The notes under the pieces: generated by a model
What the model was told of the DNA's origin: nothing
Database searches by the model: none
What the model saw: only the letters and a program-made list of their open reading frames with translations
Program-made: the position numbers and the translations under genes
Source of the DNA: an uncultured Lachnospiraceae bacterium
Lineage (GTDB): Bacteria; Bacillota; Clostridia; Lachnospirales; Lachnospiraceae
Direction of reading: 5' to 3'
DNA: 64,000 nucleotides
Assembly (NCBI GenBank): GCA_947588675.1
Contig: CANPYY010000012.1
Coordinates: 1 to 64,000, forward strand
In this document: positions 9,154 to 34,812 of the stretch, piece after piece
Position numbering within the stretch: position 1 is the stretch's first letter
Layout: each line of letters starts with the position of its first letter

Positions 9154-9173
9154 ATCAATCCCAATCCTTTCAA

Positions 9174-9917: not shown

Positions 9918-9946
9918 AATAACACCACTCAAAATAAAATTTTTGA

Positions 9947-10828
9947 TTATCTTTTGTCATAATCTACACGTTTTAAAAATAATATTCCGATGAATCCATA
10001 GGCTGCGCTGTACCAAATCAACACAAGCCATGACATTGCAATATGCTGAACTGATGAATCATACTCCATTTCATATTCCTGCTCTAACCCCAGTTCTTTC
10101 CAACTGCTTATATTTTCATCTGACTCTGAAGCTTCGTTATATTTTTCTATAGTATCTTTTGTCGGAATTTCGTTAATATCTGCTGAACTTAATATCGCAG
10201 TCTGTCCCCATTTACTTATAGTAAGCTGTTTCAATGCTTCTGCCCCTCCGGAAAGCGGAAACATCATGCCTGCCATAACAAGCTGTACTATAAGTACAAA
10301 AGGCATTACCGTCATTGCTGCATTTTCTGTCTTTACAATACATGACACCATGAGTCCAAGTGCATCTGAGCAGAATATAACCAAAACAAATGATATAAAA
10401 AACTCAAAACCAACCCACACAAATACAACCCCTCGGTTTGGAAAATCCCTGAAAATATCAAATACCACGGTAAGGATAACTGCCTCACAGACGCACAACA
10501 CAAATTCATATATCATATGTGCAACAATATAAGAGGAAATATGAAGTCCCGTCCTGTGTTCTCTTTTTATAATATCCCTTTCCCTGCATACAGACTGTAT
10601 TGAATTAAACAATCCGACCCAGATACATCCGCAAATCATTGCAAATACTCCCGTCTTGGTGCTTTCATTTACCGAAAACGTATTATCACCAATGACCCAT
10701 GCAAGTATTGTTGATATTATCAATGTGCTTACAAGCGATTTCCAGCCTTTTTCATTTATAAAAACCCTGAAACATTTACCAACATATATTTTTATCTGTC
10801 CTATTCTTCCAATACGTGATTCATTCAT
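9947..10828 (-). CDS. ABC-2 type transporter permease
   Basis: A 293-residue membrane protein with an N-terminal cytoplasmic stretch and about six hydrophobic helices in the ABC2-membrane pattern (including TLIISTILAWVIGDN, ICGCIWVGLFNSIQSV and ALGLMVSCIVKTENAAM). The RERDIIKREHRTGLHISSYI segment is typical of ABCG/White-like exporters. It begins directly after the FHA-ABC ATPase stop (GGAGAA spans the junction), so the two form an exporter. A charged extracytoplasmic loop before the final helix is unusually acidic. The cargo is unknown; the two secreted DUF6273 proteins have Sec signals and do not obviously need it. Confidence 0.88.
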   Translation of the reverse strand: MNESRIGRIGQIKIYVGKCFRVFINEKGWKSLVSTLIISTILAWVIGDNTFSVNESTKTGVFAMICGCIWVGLFNSIQSVCRERDIIKREHRTGLHISSYIVAHMIYEFVLCVCEAVILTVVFDIFRDFPNRGVVFVWVGFEFFISFVLVIFCSDALGLMVSCIVKTENAAMTVMPFVLIVQLVMAGMMFPLSGGAEALKQLTISKWGQTAILSSADINEIPTKDTIEKYNEASESDENISSWKELGLEQEYEMEYDSSVQHIAMSWLVLIWYSAAYGFIGILFLKRVDYDKR

Positions 10829-10830
10829 TT

Positions 10831-12384: not shown

Positions 12385-14962
12385 TATTTTCCTCCGTTTC
12401 GTCAGAATCATATGCCATAGGGGCATCAAAGGTATATGCATCAAAGCCCATTCCACGCAGAGTTTCTACCTGCTGTTCATTTACCCCGTAAATACTTACT
12501 CTTACGCCGTCTAATTTTAATGTCTGCCAGTCAATCATTTCATTATAACTGATATCAAGTCTTGCTATTCCTTTATAACCATATTCAGGATGTAGCGAAA
12601 TGCCTGAAAAATCATAAACAGGATTACCAATTAAATCTAAATTACATAATCTTGTATTAGAAGCAAGCGGCGTGATATCTGATATATCGTTATCGCTCAA
12701 ATCCAGATTCCATAGTTCTGTCTTATCTGCTAATGCAGATATATTGCTAATATTATTTTTGTTCAATATAACATCGCTTAAAGGACAACCTGCAAGAATT
12801 GAAATATCCGAAATCTTATTTTGTCCTGCATGAAATGTTTCCAACCTGGCAGCGCCTGATAAGAAGCTTACGTCATCAATACCATCATTCATACATGAAA
12901 GAGCTGTAACTGATTCAGGAATAGTAATGGTCTGCGTATTAAGCCCCGAAACAGAATCCATATCCAAAATTATAAGATTTTGATACGTCCCGATTATACT
13001 TATATCAGAAACATTGGTTTCATTAATATGTAAAAAGTGAAGTCCCGTAAGGTTGTTTAAACATGATATGTCCTTTGTCTTTGTCTTATTCAGATTCAGC
13101 GTGGTCAGATTCGTAAGATTATTCAACGGTGAAACATCTGTAATATCGGTATTTCCCTCAAGAGATAATTCTTTTAATTTAGTAAGCTCACCTATAACCT
13201 TTACATCATTATCATCCATAAAACAATTTTTTATAATAAGCTTTTCAAGATTTTTAAGTTCTTTTAATTTGGCAATATCATTATCATTTACGATATCATA
13301 AGAAATTGTTACACTATCTGCATTTTTCGTTATATGTTTATCCCCGATAGTAATAGTATTAAAACTTTTAAATATAACTAAAATGATAGCCATAACAAGC
13401 AATGCCGCAATAACGCAACCGCATATTTTTAATCTCCGTAAAAGTTTTTTATGTTCCAGACGAGGATAATAAAAATATCCCATAAAAGCCGCAATGGCAA
13501 GAGCATCTATTATACAAATCATCTGAATATCATAATTATAAACAATTAAAATATCATTAATCCCACTATTAACAACAATATCAAGCAGCATAGACGATAC
13601 TATCCATGCCACTATAACAATCATTACAACACTGATTGCAAAGCAAACCTTATTTGGTTTTCTTTCTTTATTATTGATATAAGGGTAATACTTTCTTCCT
13701 GACAAAAAGGTCACGCCAACAAATATTGCTAGTATTATAAAACAAATAAATAAAAATACTCCCCCGGTAAAAGCCTGAGCCTGGATTCCAAATAATATAA
13801 ACGACAACATAAAAAGTGAAATCAATCCCGTAATTGTTGAAATCACCAAACCCGACTTTTGAGGCTGCATTAAGGGTTCTTGATTTTCCCGCACAGGCGC
13901 TTTTCTCTCCGGAGTTTCTGCAACCGGTTTTTCTGTTTTATTTACCGGCTTATCGGCATTTGGTGTCTGCCTGCTTATCTTCTGCATGTCAGGATTATTA
14001 CTAAAATACATATCGCCTGAAACCGTAACTTCACTGTCATCAAATTCGGTTTGCACATTATTTTCCGTATTTCCTTCCATACACGCTTTCTGCAAATCTT
14101 CTATTGATTGGAAACGGTTTTCCTGTTGTATCGCCATGCCTTTTAAAACAATATTATCCTGCTCTTTTGATATATCAGAATTTATGGATGACGGAGCTGC
14201 AAGTTCATCTTTAAATATTCTGTTCATTGCATCATCAGGAGTAACACCTGTAATAAGCTTATACATAGTAGCCGCTAAGGCATATACATCTGTCCATGGT
14301 CCCTGTCTGCCTTTTGTCCTGTATTGTTCTTCCGGGGCATAACCCGGCTTTAACATAATAGACAGGCTTTTTTCATCCGTTCCTACTACATTTCTTGCCG
14401 CTCCAAAATCAAGCAATTTTACAACGCCGTCACTAAGAACCATAATATTGGATGGACTTATATCACGGTGAATCAATCCCTGCTCATGTATTTTAGATAA
14501 AGCGCTCATTATCGGCGAAAGCATTTCAAACGCTTTTTCAAAAGACATAACACCCTTTTGTTCCAGATACTCTTTCAAATCAATTCCGCAAAGATATTCC
14601 ATTACAATATATGCCGTATTATTTTCAGAAAAAAAATCCCGTACTGAAACAATATTCGGATTGTTTGCAAACTTAGCTAACGTTCTGGCTTCTTTAAGGA
14701 AATTTTCTTTACCTTTTTCAAAATCTGCCTGGGCATTCCCAACATTAACCGTAACTTCCGCAGAAACAGCACTGTTTCTGTTTACAATGCCTGACGGAAA
14801 ATATTCCTTAACTGCTATTTTCATATCCAGATTAATATCCTGCCCTATGTATGTAATTCCAAATCCACCTTCACCTAAAACCGCGCCTATCTCATATTTA
14901 CCATTTAAAACCGTGCCCGGGCTCAAATGGTGCGGTGCATACATGTATTCATGTTGTTCCAT
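12377..14962 (-). CDS. Receptor-like Ser/Thr kinase with extracellular leucine-rich repeats
   Basis: An 861-residue protein with an N-terminal kinase domain (about 20-290). It has a glycine loop GEGGFGITY, VK lysine in MKIAVKEYFP, catalytic HRDISPSN (about 165), DFG in LLDFGAAR, and the APEEQY activation-segment end. A disordered acidic/proline linker (to about 365) and five hydrophobic helices (about 370-550) follow, then about ten 22-residue leucine-rich repeats of internalin type (NLTNLTTLNLN, LDLSDNDISDITPL) to about 840. Five membrane spans put the LRR domain outside, giving an inside-out mirror of plant LRR receptor kinases. It is translationally coupled to the FHA-ABC gene, the obvious phospho-target candidate. 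Ligand unknown. Confidence 0.93.
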   Translation of the reverse strand: MEQHEYMYAPHHLSPGTVLNGKYEIGAVLGEGGFGITYIGQDINLDMKIAVKEYFPSGIVNRNSAVSAEVTVNVGNAQADFEKGKENFLKEARTLAKFANNPNIVSVRDFFSENNTAYIVMEYLCGIDLKEYLEQKGVMSFEKAFEMLSPIMSALSKIHEQGLIHRDISPSNIMVLSDGVVKLLDFGAARNVVGTDEKSLSIMLKPGYAPEEQYRTKGRQGPWTDVYALAATMYKLITGVTPDDAMNRIFKDELAAPSSINSDISKEQDNIVLKGMAIQQENRFQSIEDLQKACMEGNTENNVQTEFDDSEVTVSGDMYFSNNPDMQKISRQTPNADKPVNKTEKPVAETPERKAPVRENQEPLMQPQKSGLVISTITGLISLFMLSFILFGIQAQAFTGGVFLFICFIILAIFVGVTFLSGRKYYPYINNKERKPNKVCFAISVVMIVIVAWIVSSMLLDIVVNSGINDILIVYNYDIQMICIIDALAIAAFMGYFYYPRLEHKKLLRRLKICGCVIAALLVMAIILVIFKSFNTITIGDKHITKNADSVTISYDIVNDNDIAKLKELKNLEKLIIKNCFMDDNDVKVIGELTKLKELSLEGNTDITDVSPLNNLTNLTTLNLNKTKTKDISCLNNLTGLHFLHINETNVSDISIIGTYQNLIILDMDSVSGLNTQTITIPESVTALSCMNDGIDDVSFLSGAARLETFHAGQNKISDISILAGCPLSDVILNKNNISNISALADKTELWNLDLSDNDISDITPLASNTRLCNLDLIGNPVYDFSGISLHPEYGYKGIARLDISYNEMIDWQTLKLDGVRVSIYGVNEQQVETLRGMGFDAYTFDAPMAYDSDETEENNG

Positions 14963-15003: not shown

Positions 15004-15492
15004 TTATTCTACTTTTCTCCACACATCAGATACATATTGACTTCCATCATCCGCAGTACGTTTCCAAGTCATTATAGAATCTGATATTTCTATAGAAAAT
15101 TCATCAACATTTCCATATCCATATTCACTATTATAAAACATTGTTAAATTATTTCCTGATAATTTATATGTACCAATATTTTCATCTTTCCAACTATTAA
15201 TATACCACCCTCCATTACTGTCAAATGTAATGGTTCCATCTCCTTCCCAGGTACCTACTATTCTGTTTTTATGTTTACCAATAAAAATTACTGCTATAAT
15301 TATCAGAATAATAATTATTACTGCTATAATTCCTGCCTTTGGAATCTTTCTCTTTAACCTGACTGCCTGTTCAGGTGATGCAACAGTTCCCATTCCGCCT
15401 ACTGCAGAAGCAGATAAAGGTTGTCCGCACCTGTTGCAGAACCCTGCGCTGTCAGCATTAGCAGCTCCACATGATCTGCAATATTTTGACAT
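15004..15492 (-). CDS. Zinc-ribbon membrane protein with lipocalin-like extracellular domain
   Basis: A 162-residue protein. The N-terminal double-CxxC zinc ribbon is YCRSCGAANAD...FCNRCG (about residues 5-23). A basic linker, one membrane helix (AGIIAVIIIILIIIAVIFIG, about 50-69) and a small beta-rich outer domain with GTWEGDGTITF and WYINSWKDENIGTYKL follow; the last looks like a DUF5640/lipocalin-like barrel. The ATG at 15492 follows AAGGA by 8 nt. It lies between the LRR kinase (41 nt downstream) and another zinc-ribbon protein (18 nt upstream). A signalling or sensing role is inferred only from context. Confidence 0.75.
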   Translation of the reverse strand: MSKYCRSCGAANADSAGFCNRCGQPLSASAVGGMGTVASPEQAVRLKRKIPKAGIIAVIIIILIIIAVIFIGKHKNRIVGTWEGDGTITFDSNGGWYINSWKDENIGTYKLSGNNLTMFYNSEYGYGNVDEFSIEISDSIMTWKRTADDGSQYVSDVWRKVE

Positions 15493-15510
15493 TTTAATCA
15501 TCCTTTCGCT

Positions 15511-16176
15511 TTAATTAGTAAACATATGTTTACGCTTATTAAAATATATGTAACTTAAAACTACTAATACTATAGTTCCCATCCAAATACCCGTCATTTG
15601 TGAAAAACCACTACTTCCTAAATCAGAAAAAGACACCTCAAGCACACTCATTTGTATTATAAAATGTAATGTATTTATAACGGGACTTACTATATAATAA
15701 GCCAGTAATAATACAATTGAATTAGACTTAAATCCTGCCAGTTGTTTGCGTACATACAATACTCCAAACAAAGCATATGCAATCCAAATAATACCAACAG
15801 TTATGTCCGTTCCTTTTAAAGCAGGAACTGTTTCATATAAAACCGATGCATCAATTTCAAGCCCATATATATCTCCTGTCATGGTTCTTATTGCCGTAAT
15901 TACTGCAAAGAAACCTGAAAAAAACAATTGAAAATATATTACGAATTTATACCATTTCATTGACAGATTCGGTTGAAAATTATTATAATTCTGCGAATAA
16001 TTATCAGTTTCACTTTGGTAATTAGTTTGTTGTTGGTAATTATTCATTCCCGATGAATAATTACTTGTTGCCTGCGAGTTATACCTTTCACTTTGACTAT
16101 CTAAAACGGCGCCACACATAGGACAAAACTTTGATTGTGGATTTTCTATTTGCTTACCACAGTTTGAACAATACAT
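15511..16176 (-). CDS. Zinc-ribbon polytopic membrane protein
   Basis: A 221-residue protein with an N-terminal zinc ribbon (MYCSNCGKQ...KFCPMCGAVLD). A Gln/Asn/Tyr/Ser-rich low-complexity linker (about 27-70) precedes four to five hydrophobic helices to the C-terminus. No catalytic motif is visible. It belongs to the run of four consecutive zinc-ribbon membrane proteins in this operon and shares only the ribbon with its neighbours. The Q/N-rich linker is unlike typical cytoplasmic linkers and might mediate assembly. Function unknown. Confidence 0.72.
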   Translation of the reverse strand: MYCSNCGKQIENPQSKFCPMCGAVLDSQSERYNSQATSNYSSGMNNYQQQTNYQSETDNYSQNYNNFQPNLSMKWYKFVIYFQLFFSGFFAVITAIRTMTGDIYGLEIDASVLYETVPALKGTDITVGIIWIAYALFGVLYVRKQLAGFKSNSIVLLLAYYIVSPVINTLHFIIQMSVLEVSFSDLGSSGFSQMTGIWMGTIVLVVLSYIYFNKRKHMFTN

Positions 16177-16230
16177 ACATCTCTCTCCTATTCTTTTTTT
16201 TAATTTATAATAATATAGTTATCCTATACA

Positions 16231-17073
16231 TTACCGCATCCATTTGCTTAATTGATTCAGTTCATCCAGTCCGCTCCGTATGTACCCTTTTATTTCATCT
16301 GAAACATACGATGTACATACTACCCTTGCAAATATAATAAAAATCAATATAGACAATAGCAGCATTGCCAAAAAAATGTATACACGCTTATTTTTATCTA
16401 CTCCTGATACAGAGTAGATTGAAACATTCTGATACACTATACCAATCAAATAACTTATAACATATAAAGCAAGTCCATATAACTCATTGCATTTAAATAA
16501 CAGACAACTAACCAATATAACAGGCGCCAATACAACGACCCTCATAGATGTAGCTGCCAAAGCCTCTTTAAAATTTATAGCCCCTTTTCCTATTTTTATC
16601 AGTACAAACAACAATGCCGTACTTATCATATAAAGTATACCTGAATATATAATTGTCAAAACAAAAGCCTGCAATACGGGAATAATTTTATAATCTCCGC
16701 CATCCAAAGAATTAATTCTTAATGCAAAAATCACAGCAAAAACAGCAGAAACCAACGCCTGAACACACATAAAAATTATTATAGTCAGCATATCAGTATT
16801 TTTGATATACGCACTTCCGGCGTCAAATGGTTTAAGTAAAATATCTAAATATGTTTTTGCAATAAATCCTGTTTTTTTCTTAATATCTTCTCCGTTATAC
16901 TGCCGCTGTCTGTAATCAGGCTGTGAATAACCGGTATATTGATAATTTACTGATGCATTCTGTTCAATATTAACGGGGTTTCCAAAATTGCCATTCAAAG
17001 CTTTTCCACATTTTGAACACAATGTTTCTGAATCAGCATTCGCTGTACCACAAAACATACAATATTTTGCCAT
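16231..17073 (-). CDS. Zinc-ribbon protein with Yip1-like membrane domain
   Basis: A 280-residue protein. The zinc ribbon MAKYCMFCGTANAD...LCSKCGKAL occupies about residues 1-27. A polar linker with YTGYSQPDYRQRQYNG follows, then five to six hydrophobic helices in a Yip1/DUF1282-like arrangement beginning KTYLDILLKPFDAGSAYI. The start is set at the ATG 17073 by AAGGAG 9 nt upstream; the ORF-track start at 17139 would overlap the neighbouring gene. Yip1-like domains in bacteria are often membrane partners of signalling proteins, but the role here is unknown. Paralogous N-termini suggest the four zinc-ribbon proteins share a common cytoplasmic partner. Confidence 0.75.
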   Translation of the reverse strand: MAKYCMFCGTANADSETLCSKCGKALNGNFGNPVNIEQNASVNYQYTGYSQPDYRQRQYNGEDIKKKTGFIAKTYLDILLKPFDAGSAYIKNTDMLTIIIFMCVQALVSAVFAVIFALRINSLDGGDYKIIPVLQAFVLTIIYSGILYMISTALLFVLIKIGKGAINFKEALAATSMRVVVLAPVILVSCLLFKCNELYGLALYVISYLIGIVYQNVSIYSVSGVDKNKRVYIFLAMLLLSILIFIIFARVVCTSYVSDEIKGYIRSGLDELNQLSKWMR

Positions 17074-17107
17074 TTCAATCAGCTCCTTATTATAATATTT
17101 ATATATG

Positions 17108-17926
17108 TTACTGAATTTTTTCCATATCAGTAATTCCACAATCAGGATTTAAAATAAAATAAGTTTCAAATGCACCTTTCAAAAATAATCTAACTTCCCC
17201 AGGATTGCAAAATACTGTTCCATTAATATTGCACATTTTATCTTTTGTAATTTCTACTGTAGCTCCCAATGTTTCAGTAAACCAGTCACCGCCTATGACA
17301 GTAGCTATATATCCATCACCGCTTTTTTCAATACTTATAGCCCTTGGTGTCATCCACGAGTAACTATTATCTTTTTCCTCCCAAACGCCTTCTATATCAT
17401 GATAATTCCAATCTTCTGTTATACTTAAATTTTTATTAACGTATATCCACTCCCTATTTACATATTCAAGCGGATAAGCTATTGTTACCGTACAGTCTGC
17501 ATATGTATAATTTGCAGATATCGTATATGTAACCGTAGCATTTTCGCCTTCTGATGATATTTCAGGTTCTGTTATTTGAATAGTCCTGTTTGTATTATTT
17601 TCATCATATGAACTTTCCAATGCAGCTATATATTGTTCGTTACGTCCAGTTAATAATTGTGTTACTTCTTCCTTTGTAGGTGCTTTTATGTACATACCCT
17701 TTGAGTAAAATATTGCACCTCCCGCAACTAATATTAAAACAATTAAAATAAATGCTGCCCATACTCCTTTATTAGATTTCTTTATCGACGGTTTCATTGG
17801 TGCGGCAGATATTGGTGATTTTGGAAACGTTGACATCATTCCCTGTTGCAGCCTTGCCCTGCAGCTAACACAATACTCCGTCCCATCTCTGTTAAAAGCT
17901 CCGCATGAGATACAGTATTTTGCCAT
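17108..17926 (-). CDS. Zinc-ribbon, single-pass protein with beta-rich extracellular region
   Basis: A 272-residue protein. The zinc ribbon MAKYCISCGAFNRDG...YCVSCRARL occupies about 1-26. A basic linker, one helix (VWAAFILIVLILVAGGAIFYS, about 54-74) and an extracellular part follow. The outer part begins with a helical KEEVTQLLTGRNEQYIAALES stretch and continues as two beta-rich units (about 105-175 and 180-260) including DIEGVWEEKDNSYSW. The second unit loosely resembles the outer domain of the 15004-15492 protein. It is the first of the four zinc-ribbon genes, 88 nt downstream of the membrane PP2C gene. No enzyme motif is visible. Confidence 0.72.
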   Translation of the reverse strand: MAKYCISCGAFNRDGTEYCVSCRARLQQGMMSTFPKSPISAAPMKPSIKKSNKGVWAAFILIVLILVAGGAIFYSKGMYIKAPTKEEVTQLLTGRNEQYIAALESSYDENNTNRTIQITEPEISSEGENATVTYTISANYTYADCTVTIAYPLEYVNREWIYVNKNLSITEDWNYHDIEGVWEEKDNSYSWMTPRAISIEKSGDGYIATVIGGDWFTETLGATVEITKDKMCNINGTVFCNPGEVRLFLKGAFETYFILNPDCGITDMEKIQ

Positions 17927-18014: not shown

Positions 18015-19490
18015 TTAATTCTTTTCCGTTTTAATATATTCTGAATCATATGAAGATTTTATTGTTTCAGTTTCACCAATATTATTATCCGGTTTTTCTG
18101 TTACTTTTGGTTTTTCTGTACTATTCGTTTTACTGTTTTTCTTATTTGATGGTGTAGATGCAGGTTTTTCCGTACTGCTTTCAATTTGTTTCAACTTATC
18201 TTTATAAGATTTAAGTACGTTCTGTGAGCCATTATAAATATGTAGCGTTATAAAAACCATAATTAACGAAATAACGCCAACGGCTAATGATGTCATGGCT
18301 ATTACCCTGTATTTTGCTGCTTTCCGTTTTAAATCAGCCATTCTTTTATGTAATATATAATTTTCCTGTCTTAATTTCCCATAATCCTGTTCCTGCAAAT
18401 TATCACCTGATTTAATTTGAGGTTCTTCCTTTGCGGTTCCATTAATAAGTTCCTCGACAGATTTTCTTACAGGTTCATCCGGAAGCTGTTTCCCATATAA
18501 AAATGCCTGATAACATTCCTGTTTCCACTGCCAGTCAGCCTCACGGTAATAATAAATATCCTGAGGCGTAACTTTAGCTTTTTCATTTATAATGCACACA
18601 ACAGATTTATCATCTGTTACATTTTCTATTGCTCTTACCGCGTAATCATATTCTTTTATTTCCTCACATATCACTCCTGCTTTCTGTACTCCAAACATTT
18701 TAACGTAAGCATGTTTTATACAATCCATAAATGTATTTTCTGCCGAATCGCCAAAAATTCCCTCTACAAATTTTTCAATAAAATTATTCTTGTCCTTTAT
18801 ATTTTTATTCAAGTAAACTGAATACGGATTCATAAAAAATTCTGATGCTGTAATATAAGCATTATTTTTCGGAAAATTTCCTCTTGCCAATGCAATTTTA
18901 TCCTTGGGAAGATTTAAAAGCACAGGTTGGAACACTCCGTCAAGCATACCGTCAGTAGCCAAAAGTACGGACGCAGCTTTTGCTTCACATATTCCAAACT
19001 TCCATGTCCTGTTTCCTCCCCTTAATGGAATAACAGAACTTCCATCAGCTCCTTTTTGCCTCTGCGTAATTGGTTGAATTATTCCATTATATAAACGTAC
19101 AAGAATCCCGCCGTCTCCTGCATGTCCATATATTACTTTTTCTCCGTCATACAATATTGAAGATAACGTCGTATCATAACTTTCTATAGAATTTCCTGTT
19201 TTCCCTGCACATAGTTCTATTTGTTTGAAAGCATATTCATAACCGTCTTCAAGCATTTCCCGGAGTTTGGAAACAGACATATTACGACTAATATTTTCTT
19301 TACAATACTCATACAGTGAATTGACTGCTGTTTTGGAGCCTATATCTGCATTTGCGGCGCTTCCTACTCCGTCTGCAACCACTCCCAGATACCAGCCGCC
19401 ATTTAACTGTACTGCTTTACTTGCGTCCTGACATACAACGCCTCTGCTTTTATGCGATTTACCTTGAATAGAAAATCCATACGTTATCAT
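18015..19490 (-). CDS. Membrane-anchored PP2C-type protein phosphatase
   Basis: A 491-residue protein. The N-terminal PP2C-like domain (about 1-255) has SHKSRGVVCQDAS, VADGVGSAANADIGS, YGHAGDGGILV and LATDGMLDGV, so the metal-binding aspartates are retained. A linker with a short coiled-coil (KLRQENYILHKRMADLKRKA), one membrane helix (about 393-415) and a Ser/Thr/Lys/Pro-rich outer tail follow. It is probably the phosphatase of the vWA-PP2C-kinase group that surrounds it (vWA 31 nt upstream). The membrane anchor and outer tail are unusual for triad phosphatases. Confidence 0.85.
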   Translation of the reverse strand: MITYGFSIQGKSHKSRGVVCQDASKAVQLNGGWYLGVVADGVGSAANADIGSKTAVNSLYEYCKENISRNMSVSKLREMLEDGYEYAFKQIELCAGKTGNSIESYDTTLSSILYDGEKVIYGHAGDGGILVRLYNGIIQPITQRQKGADGSSVIPLRGGNRTWKFGICEAKAASVLLATDGMLDGVFQPVLLNLPKDKIALARGNFPKNNAYITASEFFMNPYSVYLNKNIKDKNNFIEKFVEGIFGDSAENTFMDCIKHAYVKMFGVQKAGVICEEIKEYDYAVRAIENVTDDKSVVCIINEKAKVTPQDIYYYREADWQWKQECYQAFLYGKQLPDEPVRKSVEELINGTAKEEPQIKSGDNLQEQDYGKLRQENYILHKRMADLKRKAAKYRVIAMTSLAVGVISLIMVFITLHIYNGSQNVLKSYKDKLKQIESSTEKPASTPSNKKNSKTNSTEKPKVTEKPDNNIGETETIKSSYDSEYIKTEKN

Positions 19491-19521
19491 TATATTTCCT
19501 CCAATACATCTCCGAATATGT

Positions 19522-20232
19522 CTAATACCAGTCTTCGTCTATACGTCTGCCTCTTTCGGCTTTTCTTACATTTTCAGGTAAAGTTCCAAATTCAACATCT
19601 TCACCCGGACGGCTCTGTGAAATTACTGCCATACTTTCGGAAAGCCAGTCAAATACACCTCTGAAATCCTGATTCCTTAATTCAATAACCCGCTTTGTAA
19701 GTGAAAAAAGTTCATCCTGGTCATAATCACCTGTACCTAACGCCCAAAAACTCAGATGTCCATTTGAACCCTTTGATTCTGCCATTTTTATTTTCTGCGC
19801 AGCCTGCATCATTGCGCTTTCCGAAGATGTAGACAACCCGTCAGTAATCATAAATATCCATGGTTTATGACACGGCGTTCCCAGATTATGATATAAACCG
19901 GTACGTTCCTTTACCATATCAACAGCCTTGTCTATACCTGCCGCCATATCAGTCCTTCCACCTGCCCTAAGTACCGGTACAGGCATTTCTGTAACAGGCA
20001 TAAAATCACTGACAACTTTAACTTCAGAGCCAAATGTAATTAATGCAACATCTACTCTGTTCCTTGCAACCGGATCGTCAGACACATTATACTTAAACTG
20101 TTTAATACTGTTATTCAAACTGTTTATTGCATCTCCTGCCATAGAACCTGACACATCTAACAATAATGCACACGCCAGATGCGGTTCGCCACATGATTTT
20201 ATAAAATCGTCCATATTAAATTGTTTTGCCAT
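19522..20232 (-). CDS. von Willebrand factor A domain protein, TerY-like
   Basis: A 236-residue cytoplasmic vWA protein. It has a complete MIDAS: LLDVSGSMAG (DxSxS, about residues 24-33), the threonine in GGRTDMAAGI, and the aspartate in FMITDGLS. TerY-type vWA proteins act as adaptors for a PP2C phosphatase and a kinase with a zinc ribbon; exactly those genes lie next to it (PP2C downstream, kinase 23 nt upstream). The classical partners TerC, TerD and TelA are absent from the window, so this is a triad-like set without the ter core. Confidence 0.9.
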   Translation of the reverse strand: MAKQFNMDDFIKSCGEPHLACALLLDVSGSMAGDAINSLNNSIKQFKYNVSDDPVARNRVDVALITFGSEVKVVSDFMPVTEMPVPVLRAGGRTDMAAGIDKAVDMVKERTGLYHNLGTPCHKPWIFMITDGLSTSSESAMMQAAQKIKMAESKGSNGHLSFWALGTGDYDQDELFSLTKRVIELRNQDFRGVFDWLSESMAVISQSRPGEDVEFGTLPENVRKAERGRRIDEDWY

Positions 20233-20255
20233 AATATTTATCCTCTTTTCTTTTA

Positions 20256-21569
20256 TTATTTATAAATAAGCATATCTGCTTCATCATGCAATTCTCCAAC
20301 TGTCATATCAGTAATAGCCGACTGGCTGATTGTACCATTACAGGCTTTTATACACACTGCCGCAAATAATATAATAAATATCAATACTAATGCTATAATT
20401 CCATTACTATCATGCTGTTCTTTCTGCTGCGATGTCTGAGAACCGGCTTTATATGATGTTAATGGCTCTAAATTATCATTTTGCGGCAGTATAAGTATTC
20501 CTCTCATTCTTTCTTCAATCCCGCAAAACGGACAATATTTATTATGATTAAAGTATTCATGACCTTTTACACATTTAATAATATTTGAACAATTTACACC
20601 TGCGCATTCCTGTAACGTATCTATCCATTCCTGTGTTCCTGCTCTTTTTTGCGGATTATCATATCCGTCTGTAAATGTTCTTACAAATAAATTACAGATT
20701 TTCTCAGGCAACGCTTCAAATGAAGGCGCATATACCGGATATGTAATTCCTTCTTTTTTATGATAAAAAGGAAAAAATCCATCCTTAATATTATCTATAG
20801 GCTGCGGCGTTACAACTGAATTTTTATCAAATGAATCATTTATCTGCTGTATTGTATTATCCTTTGCACACGCAAATGGATGACATCCATTCATCAAAAG
20901 AGTAAATATATGCACCGCCAGAGCAAATAAGTCGCTTTCTTTAGTATAAGTAGGGAGTTTTGCATTCTTTAATGTATATCCCTCTGACAGTTTTTTCTGA
21001 ATTTCAGGAGCAATATATTCTGCCAGTCCCACTTCACATCTGTATGTTTTTCCATCAGCCGAAATATGATATGAATCTGCATCTACCATCGTAATGTGAA
21101 ATACATTTTTTCTGTCATTTTCATCCAGATTTATACAGATATTCTGTGGATTAAGGTCACCGCATACCTGTCCCATTTCATGTATATTCTGCACTGCTAC
21201 ACACAGATTCATGGCGGTAAGCAGTCTTTTCTTACAATCATATGTAACCCCATTTTCATTATTGTAAACAGCAGTAATGACATCTGTACTCTTTAGTTTT
21301 GGCATAATATACCCTGCAAAACCCATACTGTCATATATAACATCCTGCGGCCATGTTATCTGTTCCAATAAATCTTCTGACATTTTAGTCTGTACCATTA
21401 ATATAAGTTTTTCTTCTCTTTCCCTGTTCCTGTACTCAGTTTTAAATATTTTAGCAACCTGCGTTACATTATTTTGTATGTTATGAATACTTCCTTCTCC
21501 GCCCCTGGCAATCTTTTCTTCATCAATTACATATACTGTACCTGATATTCCTTTATACTCAATCTTCAC
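20256..21569 (-). CDS. Ser/Thr kinase-like protein with C-terminal zinc ribbon and membrane helix
   Basis: A 437-residue protein: a divergent kinase domain (about 10-290) with loop RGGEGSIHNI, lysine in QVAKIFK, catalytic loop VCGDLNPQNICIN and metal site MVDADSYHI. A zinc ribbon (CVKGHEYFNHNKYCPFCGIEERM, about 328-350) and a hydrophobic helix (about 400-420) with a short tail follow. The GDLNPQN loop and zinc ribbon match TerY-P-triad kinases. The start is GTG with GGAGG 7 nt upstream. It is a close paralogue of the 22567-23934 gene, from which it is separated by the Sel1 gene. Confidence 0.88.
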   Translation of the reverse strand: MKIEYKGISGTVYVIDEEKIARGGEGSIHNIQNNVTQVAKIFKTEYRNREREEKLILMVQTKMSEDLLEQITWPQDVIYDSMGFAGYIMPKLKSTDVITAVYNNENGVTYDCKKRLLTAMNLCVAVQNIHEMGQVCGDLNPQNICINLDENDRKNVFHITMVDADSYHISADGKTYRCEVGLAEYIAPEIQKKLSEGYTLKNAKLPTYTKESDLFALAVHIFTLLMNGCHPFACAKDNTIQQINDSFDKNSVVTPQPIDNIKDGFFPFYHKKEGITYPVYAPSFEALPEKICNLFVRTFTDGYDNPQKRAGTQEWIDTLQECAGVNCSNIIKCVKGHEYFNHNKYCPFCGIEERMRGILILPQNDNLEPLTSYKAGSQTSQQKEQHDSNGIIALVLIFIILFAAVCIKACNGTISQSAITDMTVGELHDEADMLIYK

Positions 21570-21586
21570 AAAACATCCTCCAAATA

Positions 21587-22543
21587 CTATATCTTTGATA
21601 ACTGCTCACAGGCATAAGCATTGCCGCATTCAGCAGCCATCTTATAATATTCGTACGCATTATTCCGATTGTAATTAAACGCATTCCCAATGCCATCCAA
21701 TATCAGGTCTCCTATCATCTGACACACATCACCTTTTTCTTCTTTAGCCAGCCGGGAGTTATTCGATACTGCTACCAATAACTGCAAATCCTGCTGCAGC
21801 ACATTCTGCGGAGCCTGTGTAATTCTATGAGCAATTGCTTTAAGATACGCTCCCCACGGATGTAATGCTATAACATCATCCTGTGCCAGATATCTATCCA
21901 TATCAGCAAACTGCTGTTCATTATATGCAGTAAATGCAAGCGTCCAGTATGCGTTTATTTTTAAATTGTCAATCTCATCTTTTTCGTTTTCCCGTATAAT
22001 TATGTCAGTTCTTCTTAAAGTAGCATCAAGCTTATTTATTGTATTATTACAAAGCTCCTTTGCCCGGTAATAATCTCCCTGCTTTCTTGCTTCTTCAGCC
22101 GATATATTACATTTTTCTGCATCTGCTATTATAAACGCAGCCGCATCCCCGGATGCAGGCATTGGCCCCGGATTTGGCGATGCCCCTGGATTTGGCATTG
22201 GTCCCGGATTTGGCATTGCTCCCGGATTTGGCGGTGGCGTCATTTGCAGGCTTAACGGATTTGGCGGCGGATAGGCTATCCCTGCCATATTACAATATTC
22301 AGCCGCAAGTTTTTGATTTCTGGCTAAATATATACCATACTCATACATCGAAGCTAAACCTTTATAAGCTTCGTTAAGTCCCATTTTTTCTCCTTTATGG
22401 TACAACTGATAAGCACGCGTCAGATTCTTTTCGTGTCCTTTACTTCCCAAAATACAACGCTCTGCCAATTCACATATTGCATATCCATCCTTATTATTTA
22501 CCAATTGTTCAAGCTGTTCATTAGTCGCGTTTGAATAATCCAT
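21587..22543 (-). CDS. Sel1/TPR-like repeat protein
   Basis: A 318-residue cytoplasmic protein. N-terminal Sel1-like helical repeats occupy about residues 15-95 (AICELAERCILGSKGHEKNL, AYKGLASMYEYGIYLA). A Met/Asn/Pro/Gly-rich linker of 18-bp tandem units (PNPGPM) follows, then a helical C-terminal half with YRAKELCNN and a final Sel1-like repeat (AYEYYKMAAECGNAYACEQL). Sel1 proteins are scaffolds for signalling complexes. Its position between two kinase paralogues suggests it tethers them. The ATG at 22543 has AGGAG 8 nt upstream; upstream ATGs lack spacing. Confidence 0.82.
   Translation of the reverse strand: MDYSNATNEQLEQLVNNKDGYAICELAERCILGSKGHEKNLTRAYQLYHKGEKMGLNEAYKGLASMYEYGIYLARNQKLAAEYCNMAGIAYPPPNPLSLQMTPPPNPGAMPNPGPMPNPGASPNPGPMPASGDAAAFIIADAEKCNISAEEARKQGDYYRAKELCNNTINKLDATLRRTDIIIRENEKDEIDNLKINAYWTLAFTAYNEQQFADMDRYLAQDDVIALHPWGAYLKAIAHRITQAPQNVLQQDLQLLVAVSNNSRLAKEEKGDVCQMIGDLILDGIGNAFNYNRNNAYEYYKMAAECGNAYACEQLSKI
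22155..22232 (-). repeat. 18-bp tandem repeats in Sel1 protein linker
   Basis: Units of 18 bp encoding variations of PNPGPM/PNPGAM repeat about four times. They separate two helical domains and could vary in copy number without breaking frame. Confidence 0.75.
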
Positions 22544-22566
22544 TATCATCACTCCTGTAAAATTAA

Positions 22567-23934
22567 TCATAAAATTCCAAAATATATACATAACTTTGAT
22601 ACTACGTAAGATACTCCTGACGCTATAAGCATATACAGTATAACCTTTAAGACAGTAAGTATCTGGCTGCCTGTCCCATTTTGCTGTGGCGGATATTGTG
22701 AAGGATTTGGAGGAACATAGGGCGGTGTCTGCGGCGATACCGGCGGCGGAACAGTATTATGCTTCTGTGACGGCGTAGTATTGACCTCGCTTCTGTTTTG
22801 CTGTTTTGGCGGCGGTGGCGGCACTTCAGACGAAGCGTTCAAGTACCTCATCATCCTTTCTTCCATTGCACATAATGGGCAACACGTGTTATGCCTGAAA
22901 AAGTAATGTGATTTATTTTTCGTACACGACACAATATTTGAAGTCCCAGTACCCATACAATGTATCAATGCGTCTATCCATTCCTGCGTATCTGCTCTTT
23001 TTTCCGGCTCATGATATCCCTCTGTAAATGTTCTCACAAATAACGTATATATCTCATATGGCAACGACTCAAAAGCCGGTGAATACAGAGGATATGTTAT
23101 ACCATCTTTTTTATGATAAAATGGGAAAAAACCATTTTTAATATTATCTATCGGCTGAGGTGTAACTACGGACGGTTTATCAAAAGATTTATTCATCTGC
23201 CCCATTGTATGTTGATATGAACCATTAATATCCTGTGCGCACGCAAACGGATGGCATCCGTTCATCAAAAGAGTAAATATATGTACCGCAAGAGCAAATA
23301 AATCTGTTTCTTTTGTATAAGTAGGTAACGGTATTGATTTCAATGTCCTCCCGCCGCCGAATTTCTTTTGCAGTTCAGGGGCAATATAATCAGCCAGTCC
23401 CACTTCACATCTGTATGTTTTCCCTTTGGCTGAAATATGATATGAATCGGTATCTACAAGCGTAATATGAAATCCTTCACTGCCCGTACTATCCAAATTA
23501 ACACATATATTCTGTGGATTAAGGTCACCGCATACCTGCCCCATTTCATGTACTGTCTGTACCGCTATACATAAATTTATTGCAGCAATTACTCTGTACC
23601 TGAGGTCATATTGATTATCTCCATTGTTATAAATGGACGTAATAGAATCTAATGCATTTAATTTTGGCATAATATAACCGACAAACCCATTCTTATCATA
23701 TATAACATCCTGAGGCCATGTAAGAGTCTGGTACTGTTCGTCGGTTAGTTTATAACTGACCATTAAACGAAGTTTTTCTTCTCTTTCGGGATTTCTGTTA
23801 TTAGCTTTAAATATTTTGGCAACCTGTTTATAGTTGCTTTGTATTTTATGTATACTGCCTTCTCCACCCCCTGCAATCTTCTTTTCTTCTACAAAATAGA
23901 CTGCACCGGACAATCCCTGATACTGCACCCACAT
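22567..23934 (-). CDS. Ser/Thr kinase-like protein with zinc ribbon, proline-rich linker and membrane helix
   Basis: A 455-residue paralogue of the 20256-21569 kinase: loop GGGEGSIHKI, lysine QVAKIFK, VCGDLNPQNICVN, LVDTDSYHI, and zinc ribbon CTKNKSHYFFRHNTCCPLCAMEERM (about 335-360). A long proline-rich linker (VPPPPPKQQ, TPPYVPPNPSQYPP) and one C-terminal helix (TVLKVILYMLIASGVSYVV) follow. The ATG has AAGGAGATAACAAAA upstream. It is the first gene of the long downstream operon, behind a promoter carrying the shared palindrome. Two linked paralogues suggest heteromeric signalling or distinct inputs to one phosphatase. Confidence 0.88.
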   Translation of the reverse strand: MWVQYQGLSGAVYFVEEKKIAGGGEGSIHKIQSNYKQVAKIFKANNRNPEREEKLRLMVSYKLTDEQYQTLTWPQDVIYDKNGFVGYIMPKLNALDSITSIYNNGDNQYDLRYRVIAAINLCIAVQTVHEMGQVCGDLNPQNICVNLDSTGSEGFHITLVDTDSYHISAKGKTYRCEVGLADYIAPELQKKFGGGRTLKSIPLPTYTKETDLFALAVHIFTLLMNGCHPFACAQDINGSYQHTMGQMNKSFDKPSVVTPQPIDNIKNGFFPFYHKKDGITYPLYSPAFESLPYEIYTLFVRTFTEGYHEPEKRADTQEWIDALIHCMGTGTSNIVSCTKNKSHYFFRHNTCCPLCAMEERMMRYLNASSEVPPPPPKQQNRSEVNTTPSQKHNTVPPPVSPQTPPYVPPNPSQYPPQQNGTGSQILTVLKVILYMLIASGVSYVVSKLCIYFGIL

Positions 23935-24101: not shown

Positions 24102-24137
24102 AAAAAAATGCTCCGCAAAATTTCAATTGCGAAGCAT
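24102..24137 (-). terminator. Intrinsic terminator between the two signalling operons
   Basis: On the minus strand ATGCTTCGCAA and TTGCGGAGCAT form an 11-bp arm with one mismatch, followed by a run of seven T. It lies 26 nt after the stop of the 24163-25572 gene, ending the upstream operon. Confidence 0.85.
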
Positions 24138-24162
24138 CAGATTCCTTTATTTAAGATATATG

Positions 24163-25572
24163 CTATTTTCCCTCATCTCCCCACACACCCAGCAAATCAC
24201 TGTAACTGTACATTTCCTCCTTTGTAAATAAAGCAAGCAAAATATAATCTATTTCATACTCCTCGCTGATTAACGGCATATTACATGCATTAAGCGTTGA
24301 ATCCGCCAAATCTATGAACATCTGCCGCGCTATGTCCTCATGATAATCATTTTCATATTCTTCCAGATATCTCTGTTGCGCTACAGTATGTATAAGAGGA
24401 AGCAAATCTTCCCTCTGTATCATAAGGCATCGCTGCTTATTATCAAGTCCGGACTGCCTTAATACTTCTTTGGCTTCCTTTACGGTATTGATTTTAACCG
24501 GTTTCAGATATATTTCTTTAAGCAGTACATATACCCAGTTTGGTACTTCTTCATCGTCAGGCATCTCATTTAATTTCTGTATTCCCCATTTAATTCTTAA
24601 TGACATTTCCCAATGCGACGGTATATTATAGAGATATGACAGATATTTTTCCGTAACCGGTTTTACAAAACCCAAATGTGTTTTTTTACCCTTGTCTTTC
24701 CAATCGTCCGAAGCTGTAAATACTTCCGATACAAGCCTTGAATTAGTTATTTTATCTGAATATACGTCTTTGGCAAGTTCAATTATCATATTACCCAGAT
24801 TTTCAGATACATTATATAAAGCAGACTTGCGATGGCTCATAATAAACTTTTCTATTGTTTCACGACAATCCGGATTAGCTATATCCTTTTTTTCCGCAAT
24901 CCATTTGTCGTATCCTGTCCCGTTAAGGAGCAGATTCATCTGTTTCTTTTCTTCACGCCGTATTTCTTCTATTATGTTATGCTTATATATTAAAAGATAG
25001 TCGAGCATAGTCTGGCTGTAACCTTTAAACCATTCTGCATTGTCACACATCCACATAATGAAATCTCCCGCAGCCATTCCCTTTTTACTTTCATATTGAT
25101 TAAGTAACTCTCTTGTACTGTTAGTTTTTATAGTAGAAAATGAAATATCCAGACTTGCCTCAAATTTTTCCATCATGCTGATACAGTCGTCATAAGATAT
25201 ATTGTTTTCCAATCCATATAGAAATATAATTTCCCGGTAATCATTAATCTGGAAGGAGGGCTGCCCGAGTCCTTTCGTCAGATACTCCTCCGTTTCCTCT
25301 TTACCAAGTTCCATCGCAAAACACATCTCATAAACGGCGTCCCTTGATGGTTTGGCATAACCATGTATTCCAAACCACCTCCGTATGGTAGGCATAGTTG
25401 CAATATTTCTTCTGTTTGTCCTTTTTCTAAATTCTTTCAGGGCAAGGGTTCTGTTTCCTTCGCCTTTTTCTCCTTCTTCATACTGATATCCCATTTTTTC
25501 AATGATAAAAGCATCAAATCTGATAAAATTACGTTTCCCGGCTACTTCATGTATATAGTCTGCAAATATCAT
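24163..25572 (-). CDS. HTH-like protein of unknown function
   Basis: A 469-residue soluble protein that I do not recognise as a named family. The segment MPTIRRWFGIHGYAKPSRDAV followed by YEMCFAMELGKEETEEYL (about 57-100) reads like a Xre-type helix-turn-helix with the usual recognition-helix spacing. The remainder is predicted all-helical, with stretches such as FIMWMCDNAEWFKGYSQTMLDYLLIY and no signal or membrane segment. It is the last gene of the DUF6273/kinase operon (17 nt after the kinase) and precedes a strong terminator. As the only DNA-binding candidate in the island it may read kinase output or bind the shared palindrome; this is inference. Confidence 0.6.
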   Translation of the reverse strand: MIFADYIHEVAGKRNFIRFDAFIIEKMGYQYEEGEKGEGNRTLALKEFRKRTNRRNIATMPTIRRWFGIHGYAKPSRDAVYEMCFAMELGKEETEEYLTKGLGQPSFQINDYREIIFLYGLENNISYDDCISMMEKFEASLDISFSTIKTNSTRELLNQYESKKGMAAGDFIMWMCDNAEWFKGYSQTMLDYLLIYKHNIIEEIRREEKKQMNLLLNGTGYDKWIAEKKDIANPDCRETIEKFIMSHRKSALYNVSENLGNMIIELAKDVYSDKITNSRLVSEVFTASDDWKDKGKKTHLGFVKPVTEKYLSYLYNIPSHWEMSLRIKWGIQKLNEMPDDEEVPNWVYVLLKEIYLKPVKINTVKEAKEVLRQSGLDNKQRCLMIQREDLLPLIHTVAQQRYLEEYENDYHEDIARQMFIDLADSTLNACNMPLISEEYEIDYILLALFTKEEMYSYSDLLGVWGDEGK

Positions 25573-25589: not shown

Positions 25590-26999
25590 CTAATCAATTA
25601 TTCCTATAAAACCATCTGACCTTTTAGTTTTTTTACTGCTTTTTGGCGCCTCGGTTTTTTTCGGTTCCTGAGTTTTTTTAGGCGCATAAGTTTTCTGAGG
25701 CGCCTCGGTTTTTTTCGGCTCTTGAGTTTTGGTTTCTTTTTTCTTTGGTTTAGCCGTTTTTTTCGGTTTTTCAGTTTTTACCGGTTTGTCCGTTTCTTCA
25801 GCCTGTGGTATTATTGTCGGCTGCACCGGCTGTATCGGCTCCTCCGTTATATATGGTGCAGAACTTGCGTATGGCGTTATTTCAGGTATATTCTCTTTTT
25901 CTGTTTTGTTGCTCTTTTTGAAAAATCCCATTATTATTCCTGCAAATATAAATACCATAAACAAAAAACATATAAGCATTGCCGTTTTTCTGTTTTTACC
26001 GTATTTATAAGATTTAACTGCAATTTCCTGACCATCATATATATCCGACATAAGCTCGCTTACGGTTTGATACCTGTCAGACGCCTTGACATTAAGGCCT
26101 TTCATTATGGCTTCTTTTGCCTTTATGGGAATATTTATATCGGGCATATCTGCAAGCGGTTTTAAAATTTCCCCCGCCATACGTTCAATAGCGTCTAAAG
26201 GCACTTTACCCGTAAGCATGAAATACATTGTTGCGCATATTGCGTATATATCTGACCACGGGCCCTGTTTTCCTCTCGGGCGGTACTGTTCTTCAGGTGA
26301 AAATCCCCGTTTAAACAATACGGTCATGCTCTTTTGCTCTACCGCATCCTGTACCCTTGCCGAGCCAAAATCAATAAGTACCAGTTTTTCTTCTTCCTGA
26401 AATAGAATATTATCAGGGCTTATATCCCTGTGCAAAAGTCCTGTACTATGTATTTTACACAATGAACCCAGAATAGGTTTCATAAGCCTCAATACTTCCT
26501 GACCGTCCATTTTACCTTTTGCTTTTACATATTTTTTTACGCTGTCGCCTTCTATATATTTCATAATAATATAAGCGGTATTATTGGCATAGAAAAAGTC
26601 CTGAACTGAAACTATACCGTCCAGATTGCTGAACCGCGCAAGACATCTTGCCTCTTTTATAAATTTATTAAGCTTTTTATCATATTCTGTTTTATCATTT
26701 ACATATATATTAAGGTCCGTTCCGCGTATTATATCCCTGCTCACTATATCAGCCGGATAATATTCCTTCACTGCTACAGGCACTAACAGTATCTTGTCCC
26801 ATGCCAGATATGTTATTCCGAAATTGCCTGAACCAAGCGATTTTCCAAGTACATATCTTTCAGCCAGAACAGTACCCGGGAGCAGATATCTAGGACCCGG
26901 CTTGTAATTTTTAATACGCATATGACAGTATGGGCATTCATCGGAATCATCCAATATATGCATACACCCTATACATAAGTTCATACCATCAACGTTCAT
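25590..26999 (-). CDS. Transmembrane Ser/Thr kinase with N-terminal zinc ribbon
   Basis: A 469-residue protein. An N-terminal zinc ribbon (CIGCMHILDDSDECPYCHM, about 9-27) precedes the kinase domain (about 38-300) with GSGNFGITY loop, VKEYYPADIV, HRDISPDN, LIDFGSAR and SPEEQYRPRGKQGPWSDIY. One membrane helix (about 343-363) and an outer tail of Lys/Thr/Pro repeats (KKTEAP, KKTQEP) follow. The kinase resembles that of the LRR receptor kinase. It sits 23 nt downstream of the 1673-residue DUF6273 protein, the likely extracellular partner. The tail lacks PASTA domains and may interact with wall polymers through charge. Confidence 0.9.
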   Translation of the reverse strand: MNVDGMNLCIGCMHILDDSDECPYCHMRIKNYKPGPRYLLPGTVLAERYVLGKSLGSGNFGITYLAWDKILLVPVAVKEYYPADIVSRDIIRGTDLNIYVNDKTEYDKKLNKFIKEARCLARFSNLDGIVSVQDFFYANNTAYIIMKYIEGDSVKKYVKAKGKMDGQEVLRLMKPILGSLCKIHSTGLLHRDISPDNILFQEEEKLVLIDFGSARVQDAVEQKSMTVLFKRGFSPEEQYRPRGKQGPWSDIYAICATMYFMLTGKVPLDAIERMAGEILKPLADMPDINIPIKAKEAIMKGLNVKASDRYQTVSELMSDIYDGQEIAVKSYKYGKNRKTAMLICFLFMVFIFAGIIMGFFKKSNKTEKENIPEITPYASSAPYITEEPIQPVQPTIIPQAEETDKPVKTEKPKKTAKPKKKETKTQEPKKTEAPQKTYAPKKTQEPKKTEAPKSSKKTKRSDGFIGIID

Positions 27000-27022: not shown

Positions 27023-30000
27023 TCATGTGACTATTTTCTTAACAGAAGAATAACGGCTGTATATCTTTTCTTTTCCTTTAACCCGGTATGTCCGTATTTT
27101 AATCTGTATCTTTTGCTTTCTTTTTTTATACCGGAGCTTAAATATTCCCTTATATTTCTTTATTTTTACTTTGCCAACAGATACCTTTTTAAAATGCTTT
27201 TTCTCATTTTTAACATATACCCCAATATATTCTCCATCGTACTTTTTAAGTTTTATTTCAATATATTTTATTGCGCCCTCTCTTTTTTTCTTTAATGTAA
27301 ACGTCGGTTTGATCAATAACCGCTTATTATTTTCCGTAAGAGGCGGCGCTATACCCGGTGAAGGAAGTACGGCGTCATTTTCTAATTGAAATTTCTGTAC
27401 GCTTTTATTCTCCGGTTGTAAGCTGACTACAGGCGAATTTTCTGAAAGAAGCGGGCTGTTTGTGGCACGCGGAACTAATGTGGCATAAGGCGGTTTTGTA
27501 GGCGACGGTCTTTTTGTAGCGCCAGGAGTCGGGGTCGGCAGCGGATAATCTTTATCAGAATACAGTTTTATATAATCAAACCCAAAAGAAGTGTACATAT
27601 CTGAAAGTTCCGTACCTGAGTTTGGTACCGTAGTATATATTTCTATCTTCGAAAGATATCCTTCCCATCCTCCCAGTGAATACAAATCTATATTACAGAC
27701 AGCCATTCCCTTATAGTCCTTAAAAATACCTGTTCCTATATCATATCTGGCTCCATAGGCGTCATAAAGTATAAGTCCATAAGTTTCATCAAGTTCATCA
27801 TAAGCCAGTTCAAGCCATCTGTAATACCCTTTCTCATGCGTTGTTTCGGGAGTCCAAATCGTCATCTGAACACCCGCGCGGTCATTAATTATACTATACC
27901 ACATTGTTTCTTCCATCACATAACAGGAAAACGCATCCTGCGGCCACGGTTTTTCCTGCTCAGGCTGTGGTTTTTCTGAATCAGGCATCGGGGTCGGAGT
28001 TGGAAATTCCCTCATGATATCCATATCAGATACGCTTATCTTTCCGGCATGTCTGTATGTATCTGACTCCAAATCAATATATATTACCGGTCTTATAAGT
28101 CCTTTATTATCCCAAATCACTCCGTATACCATACTACCTTCAACAAATACGCGGTTCAATTTATAATCCATAATCCACCACATGCTGCTTCCTGCCCATG
28201 GTCCCGTATCTCTTACATATATACCCGACTGTTTTGCATAATCGCTTCCCCTGCATGTTCTGGTACCGGTTGAAACATCATAAGCCATAGACGCAAAACC
28301 ATAACTGTCTTTATACAGATATCGTCCCAAAGGAAGTGTAACTTTATCCGAATTATCAAGCATCTTATTTATAATAATTGTATCTTTTTCTTCACTGTTA
28401 AACGCTTCATTATAAAAATCATTATTAAGCCATTCTCTTATACTGCTATCCTTCCATTCTGCCGTTTCTTCTTCCGCAGTGTAAAGACCCGTATCCGACA
28501 TCAGACACGCTGTATCTCCATCTACCGAAAGTACGCGCCATCTTATCGGCGTCTTTTTATCTTTAGTATCGGCCCTGCCATCTTTATTTGTATCCTCCTG
28601 CCAGTAGTTTCCGAAATATATACTGTCCCACTCGCTTCGCTCAATCCCTGTCTTTACCGTTTCTTCACTTTTAAGGGGAAATACAGATGTATCTACATGT
28701 ATTACAGGATGTACCTCATCTTCAAAACCGCTTACACTGGCAAAGCCGGTATTTACTTCTCCATATATTGTAGTTGCAATATCAGTACCCGACCTTCCGG
28801 GAGTACGTGTCCAATAACCGTTATAACCATCCATACATCTTCTCTGGTCGCTGTAAACATTTGGGCTGAAACCATAATCCTCATTTGTAAGCTCCTGAAC
28901 AGACGGCAGATATACTTTATCTATCGTATCATTTCCACCGTCGGTTCCGTATATCGGATTATCCTCGTTTACCACATAAGTATACTTCACCGCATGTTTT
29001 TCAATGCTGTTAAAAGCATCATTATAAAATTCTTCATTCAGCCATTTACGAAGACTGCAGGTTTCCCATGTCACATCTTCTTCCTTGTCATTATAAACCC
29101 TTTTTGCAACTTTACATTCGGACATAAGGAACATATCATCTCCGTCTTCTTTTAACACACGCCATTTAATCGGCTGCGGTTCATCTTCTTCGTCTATTTT
29201 ATAATCATTGTTTGTATCAATATATCTGTAATTTCCAAAATATACTATATCAGATTCCGTATAAGTTACTTTCGGAGCAGCAACTGAATCATTAGTATAA
29301 TAATCATAATCACCGGTCTGTACACTTTTTGCCTTTTTCCAGACTGACTTGGATAAATCTATATGCAGAACGGGACGCACCCCGTATTCATTAGTCATAT
29401 CGTATTGACTGTAGTCGTTGGAAAACAGTTGCCCTCTTTTATATGCTACTCTGAATACATCATTTGAATCACTGTCGCAAAAACGCAGCCACCAGATTTC
29501 CTCCGGATTCATTGAAATACTGCCGTCAGTCGCAATTCTTGTGTTTGTACTTTGGTCATTTTTACCAAAACCATATTTTATATTAACTGCTTCCTCCCCT
29601 GAAAGAAGATATATTTTTTCTGTTGTTTCATACATCCCGGTTTTTACTTTTGTTTCTGTTATTGCAGCTTTTTCACCGGCATTAAACGCTTCATTATAAA
29701 ACTCATTATTAAGCCACTTACGCAGGCCGCAGCCTTCCCATGTTACATTATCATCCTCCGTATCATTATACCGACGTTCTGCAAGTATATTATCCGCCAT
29801 TATAAAGGCATCATTTCCGGCAACGGAAAGAACTCTCCACTTAATCGGTTTTTTCTCACCATTTTCCTGTTCATAATTTCCAAAATATATACAGTCCCAA
29901 CTGCTGCGTTTTATACCGACTTCTATACTGCCTGCATCCTTATACTCTATTTTAGACAAATCAACATGTACGACAGGTCGTACTCCATATTTGTCAGTTT

Positions 30001-34732: not shown

Positions 34733-34812
34733 GTTCACAACTCCATTCCGTATAAGGCAAATTATTACCCCTTTTCCTACCCCATAACATGCTGACAGGC
34801 ACACACTGTTTT

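Follow-up and report, generated by a model that had tools for sequence, protein, structure and literature searches.

The window, a 64,000 nt stretch of DNA from an uncultured, gut-type Lachnospiraceae bacterium, contains a five-gene unit that we interpret as a membrane phosphoswitch of the YegI/PphC/YegL type lying in a modular envelope and secretion island, with DUF6273 proteins as its likely input and FHA-containing machines as its likely output; we give this reading a probability of roughly 0.55. By all the sequence features tested, the kinase, PP2C and vWA triad at the core of the unit is a member of the YegI/PphC/YegL family (TerY-P in the broad sense) that falls outside the subgroup linked to ter genes. 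All five ORFs were found on the minus strand where the original prediction had placed them, in the order K1, Sel1, K2, vWA and PP2C, with intergenic spacings of 17-31 bases and a strong terminator-like site ahead of K1 (Table 1). The Sel1 ORF was likewise present, but its start is probably at position 22543 rather than 22591, because the homologous protein from the closest relative, designated here the sister species, aligns from residue 17.

Table 1. Features of the five-gene unit and of the surrounding island (window coordinates, listed in the direction of the minus strand).
Feature	Coordinates	Strand	Remarks
Secreted 909-aa protein	32075-34804	-	Two DUF6273 domains
Secreted 1673-aa protein	27023-32044	-	Six DUF6273 domains
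Conventional Ser/Thr kinase	25590-26999	-	One membrane helix (predicted), then Pro/Lys/Thr-rich tail
469-aa protein	24163-25572	-	HTH-like N-terminus by eye
Intrinsic-terminator-like site	24107-24138	-	12 pairs plus T tail; lies between the triad unit and the genes upstream
K1	22567-23934	-	YegI-type Ser/Thr kinase; zinc ribbon, proline-rich linker, predicted C-terminal membrane helix
Sel1-repeat protein, putative scaffold	21587-22543	-	Pfam Sel1 4.6e-8
K2	20256-21569	-	Second YegI-type kinase; zinc ribbon, predicted C-terminal membrane helix
YegL-like vWA protein	19522-20232	-	Complete MIDAS
PP2C phosphatase	18015-19490	-	Predicted C-terminal membrane helix, residues 396-414
Four small zinc-ribbon membrane proteins	15004-17926	-	Site of the ~12-kb T7SS genes and IS of the sister species
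Ser/Thr kinase with leucine-rich repeats	12377-14962	-	Several membrane helices (predicted)
FHA-FHA-ABC ATPase	10831-12384	-	Layout like M. tuberculosis Rv1747; start from ORF-overlap inspection and sister alignment
ABC-2 permease	9947-10828	-	
Stp1-type PP2C	9174-9932	-	

The two kinases are 65% identical and flank the Sel1 gene, which bears out the predicted duplication, and in both the glycine loop and the VAK lysine are preserved, the catalytic motif reads GDLNPQN, D-x-D-S occupies the DFG position and the expected C-terminal zinc ribbon (C...H...CPxC) is present. The Pfam Pkinase profile matched K2 with 2e-8 and K1 with 1.3e-6, the latter under the Pfam cut-off. In pairwise comparisons with E. 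coli YegI, K1 was 26% identical (4e-32) and K2 25% identical (1e-31), and the homology spans the kinase domain and the zinc ribbon at its end. Additionally, hydrophobicity predicts a single membrane helix in each kinase (residues 427-445 in K1 and 391-409 in K2), a feature absent from the original prediction. A PDB sequence search with the kinase retrieved generic kinases only, and a single-sequence AlphaFold model of K1 (pLDDT 38) was left unused.

The PP2C and vWA proteins matched Pfam PP2C_2 (1.6e-27) and VWA_2 (3.6e-8), and their E. coli counterparts are PphC (26% identity, 1e-8) and YegL (39%, 6e-36), respectively. As predicted, the MIDAS of the vWA protein is complete, and its residues D26, S28, S30, T94 and D131 are invariant in an alignment of 11 vWA homologues; the metal-binding Asp of the PP2C is also invariant among the homologues compared. 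Hydrophobicity likewise agrees with a membrane-anchored PP2C, with one predicted helix. For the Sel1-repeat protein, two loci lend support to a scaffold role: in L048, from a relative, 20 Sel1 repeats are fused to a triad kinase, and in L049 a Sel1/TPR gene adjoins the PP2C gene. We therefore designate the window protein a putative scaffold.

E. coli K-12 carries YegI, PphC (YegK) and YegL as adjacent genes; PMC13232886, citing Rajagopalan and Dworkin, describes YegI as a membrane Ser/Thr autokinase whose phosphate is removed by PphC, a cycle known solely from E. coli, and by analogy K1 and K2 could form an enzyme pair with the window PP2C. Both sets consist of adjacent genes for a vWA protein, a PP2C and a homologous membrane kinase with the zinc ribbon in the same position. 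However, the window has two kinases with a Sel1 gene between them and different neighbours; its PP2C is predicted to be membrane-anchored, whereas PphC has no helix, and its kinases lack the helix-hairpin-helix region of YegI. The features that make the window set a variant are thus the duplicated kinases, the Sel1 partner, the anchored PP2C and the DUF6273 context, while triads beside WXG/FtsK genes were already reported (PMC4978471, PMC11090510).

A vWA protein, a PP2C and a kinase with a zinc ribbon also make up the TerY-P architecture as outlined in PMC11090510, and the three occur together in one gene cluster of the window. The match to a TerY-P triad therefore stands for the architecture and the broad kinase family, whereas the association with tellurite or stress that had been attached to it found no support at this locus. 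Profile searches of the 95%-complete genome, in which positive controls worked, gave no match for TerD, TerC or TelA, as anticipated, and Pfam did not find on the window vWA the metal-binding TerY_C domain, which scored 3.2e-53 in one plasmid TerY control but is missing from the other plasmid TerY in the scan. The shared three-gene architecture and C-terminal zinc ribbon would also be expected of a metal or tellurite stress module that lost its ter operon; we consider such a loss very improbable, in view of these absences and of the distribution of ter genes in the family and the kinase phylogeny described below.

A kinase profile was run against genomes from the order (392) and from the phylum (399), and the matches fell into two groups, the YegI-type family and a weaker PrkC-like group (E ~1e-11 to 1e-14), the latter assigned from ORF length (mostly ~600-750 residues) and score. 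Near 68 kinases of the family we found vWA genes at 54 loci, PP2C at 51, both at 49, TerD-like genes at six and EssC at two, all of these being lower bounds owing to contig ends. With TerD-like neighbours at so few loci, the absence of ter genes is the norm: the window set does lack them and its kinases do belong to the broad family, but a triad without ter genes, which the original prediction had singled out, is the usual state. A kinase tree with 77 members united the six genomic ter-linked kinases and one kinase from a tellurite plasmid in a single long-stemmed clade (SH-aLRT 100), and this split persisted when long branches were dropped (SH-aLRT 99); in the pruned tree, the group of 17 kinases that includes K1 and YegI holds no ter-linked kinase (support 92). 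Likewise, the loci of the subclade of K1 and K2 contain no ter genes, and in a vWA tree the window protein had the same nearest relatives as in the kinase tree. The kinase phylogeny thus went against a placement among tellurite-locus kinases, since K1 and K2 group elsewhere, with YegI, and it largely refutes the loss of a ter operon. Because a single kinase clade accounts for all the tellurite linkage in this sample, the TerY-P name should not imply a tellurite or stress function outside that clade; the window set shows no sign of a role in tellurite resistance, and control of something at the cell surface is more likely.

CoCoNuT loci and stand-alone defence loci also contain triads of this architecture (PMC11090510), and the kinase-zinc ribbon, PP2C and vWA set is found in GAP1-N2 systems (PMC7159879); combined with the patchy distribution of the triad within the genus, where the vWA gene was present in 2/10 genomes, this could suggest an antiphage or other biological-conflict system, on the model of the GAP1-N2 sets or of TerY-P-like modules whose kinases carry an OB-fold. 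Such a role seems improbable to us: we found no OB-fold, nuclease, helicase or CoCoNuT gene in the island, where the neighbours are envelope and signalling proteins, and Pfam found no OB-fold fused to K1 or K2, in which the zinc ribbon is followed by the membrane helix instead. The PADLOC TerY profile did not match the window vWA either, a weak test since the plasmid TerY controls gave no match.

The sister species shows ~83-95% DNA identity to the window over long aligned stretches (L002/L030-L032), and ~37 kb of the window (2278-39394) are colinear with its contig. There are three main differences, which are K2, a secreted protein at 7450-9186, and ~12 kb between the PP2C and zinc-ribbon genes. 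The sister has one intact kinase, and its Sel1-vWA gap retains the first ~22 and the last ~20 codons of K2; because both gene ends survive there, K2 predates the split of the two species and was deleted in the sister, which rules out a recent duplication specific to the window species. In the kinase tree, K2 branches next to a pair formed by K1 and the K1 of the relative (support 95), and the one kinase observed in locus L003 falls outside. Extra kinases occur as well in the unrelated loci L018 and L085. The kinase duplication is therefore real, yet neither unique nor indispensable. The L018 triad locus also has a very divergent kinase-like ORF (L018:9952-10899), possibly a pseudokinase, alongside three other kinases and two copies each of the vWA and PP2C genes.

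The ~12-kb stretch of the sister encodes ParA-like and YukD-like proteins, a WXG100 protein (2.8e-18) and an EssC-like ATPase that combines FHA with two FtsK domains; it also has three accessory ORFs and an IS. The indel edges coincide with the starts of zinc-ribbon genes on both sides, which makes swapping between such genes plausible. No EssC or WXG100 gene was found anywhere in the window genome, which thus has no type VII secretion locus; either a gain or a loss of T7SS would fit the two genomes. The sister genes, together with a second case of a family kinase adjoining an EssC-like gene (L045) and the TerY-P sets that accompany WXG/FtsK genes in H. pylori (PMC4978471), would fit a dedicated regulator of type VII secretion retained in a genome that lacks the system. 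We regard this as quite unlikely, given that EssC was near 2/68 loci and that the window genome keeps the module without WXG100 or EssC, as is seen from a vWA 93% identical to that of the sister and from two intact kinases. Likewise, the sister triad resembles those of H. pylori and the Type III-A CoCoNuTs (PMC4978471, PMC11090510) in its proximity to WXG100 and FtsK/EssC-like genes, but differs from them in that no restriction, helicase or nuclease genes were found here and in that the window species has no T7SS. The sister module (L030:13744-15324 and L031:497-8526) includes accessory ORFs of 644, 122 and 140 aa and has the IS transposase at its edge.

A further FHA-containing machine is common to both species. 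The genes at 9174-12384, beside the kinase with leucine-rich repeats, form a split Rv1747-like exporter module that is 92-96% identical in the sister. As in the M. tuberculosis PknF-Rv1747 pair, an FHA-ABC exporter with its cognate kinase (PMC3908365), an FHA-FHA-ABC ATPase lies beside a kinase, but in the island the permease is encoded by a separate gene and a PP2C is adjacent.

As for the candidate input, two secreted DUF6273 proteins are encoded upstream of the triad, and DUF6273 is joined to triad components in other genomes. One triad kinase (genome G233, locus L040) continues past its membrane helix into DUF6273 and LRRs; elsewhere G233 has no DUF6273. In another locus (G401, L081) the triad PP2C is fused to DUF6273 and two further DUF6273 ORFs adjoin the kinase; since this fusion has no clear membrane helix, DUF6273 is not always outside. 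Additionally, the only DUF6273 gene of genome G264 adjoins the triad PP2C. Four independent triad loci, the window included, were near DUF6273, against 0.66 expected (P 0.005); with the window excluded there were three against the same expectation (P ~0.03, same Poisson reckoning). A C-type-lectin-like fold has been attributed to DUF6273 (PMC10743442). Our model built from twelve repeats (pLDDT 77, pTM 0.81) matched the solved gut-bacterial IgA peptidase 9qa6 (E 6e-7), whose N-terminal domain is DUF6273 (PMC12402451); the lectin fold was not confirmed, because the match to a mannose-receptor lectin domain was weak (E 1.2). Diversification of DUF6273 by a retroelement was ruled out, as the genome contains no reverse transcriptase. 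Fusions of DUF6273 to YegI-type kinases or phosphatases are not described in PMC10743442 or PMC12402451, the two papers covered by a limited novelty check.

DUF6273 is, however, common in this order, the island holds further kinases and phosphatases, and giant or large surface proteins were not significantly enriched beside triads (4/120 vs 7/523, P 0.13), so that the unit might be an ordinary member of the large pool of kinase operons in Clostridia, with surroundings that carry no functional information. The fusion of DUF6273 and Sel1 to triad components in independent families and the conserved order of the island in two species make this rather unlikely.

Our inferences about the membrane phosphoswitch, covering its function and substrates, the activity of the kinases, the scaffold and the direction of signalling, are as follows. 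K1 and K2, each with a cytoplasmic kinase domain and zinc ribbon and one membrane helix, would phosphorylate themselves and local targets, and the anchored PP2C would undo this phosphorylation. The vWA protein may act as a Mg2+/MIDAS-dependent partner joining kinase, phosphatase and client, with the Sel1 protein as a possible scaffold. The signal would probably come from the cell surface, with the upstream secreted DUF6273 proteins as candidate input; likely outputs would be the FHA-ABC exporter of the island and, in the sister, also the EssC-type T7SS ATPase. Input and output are hypotheses drawn from the fusions and from the gene content of the island, and other island kinases, rather than K1 and K2, could serve the FHA proteins. 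The physiological role of YegI/PphC/YegL is unsettled even in E. coli, and the fusions of DUF6273 to kinase and phosphatase offer a concrete candidate for the input; likewise, the T7SS present or absent at the same site in sister species is a candidate output. A broader proposal, which we put forward as doubtful but conceivable, is that, in Clostridia, a class of YegI-type phosphoswitches receives its input from surface DUF6273 proteins and has FHA-ABC and EssC-type T7SS exporters as a phosphothreonine-controlled output swapped between species in the same island; if true, this scheme would be a Gram-positive counterpart of the threonine-phosphorylation pathway of type VI secretion.

Several other genes surround the unit. 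The secreted protein at 7450-9186, absent from the sister, contains GBS_Bsp-like repeats and lies at the edge of the island, and positions 726-2228 encode a serpin family protein (1.7e-82). The product of 24163-25572 had no Pfam or NCBIfam match and is 92% identical in the sister, being as conserved as the vWA protein.
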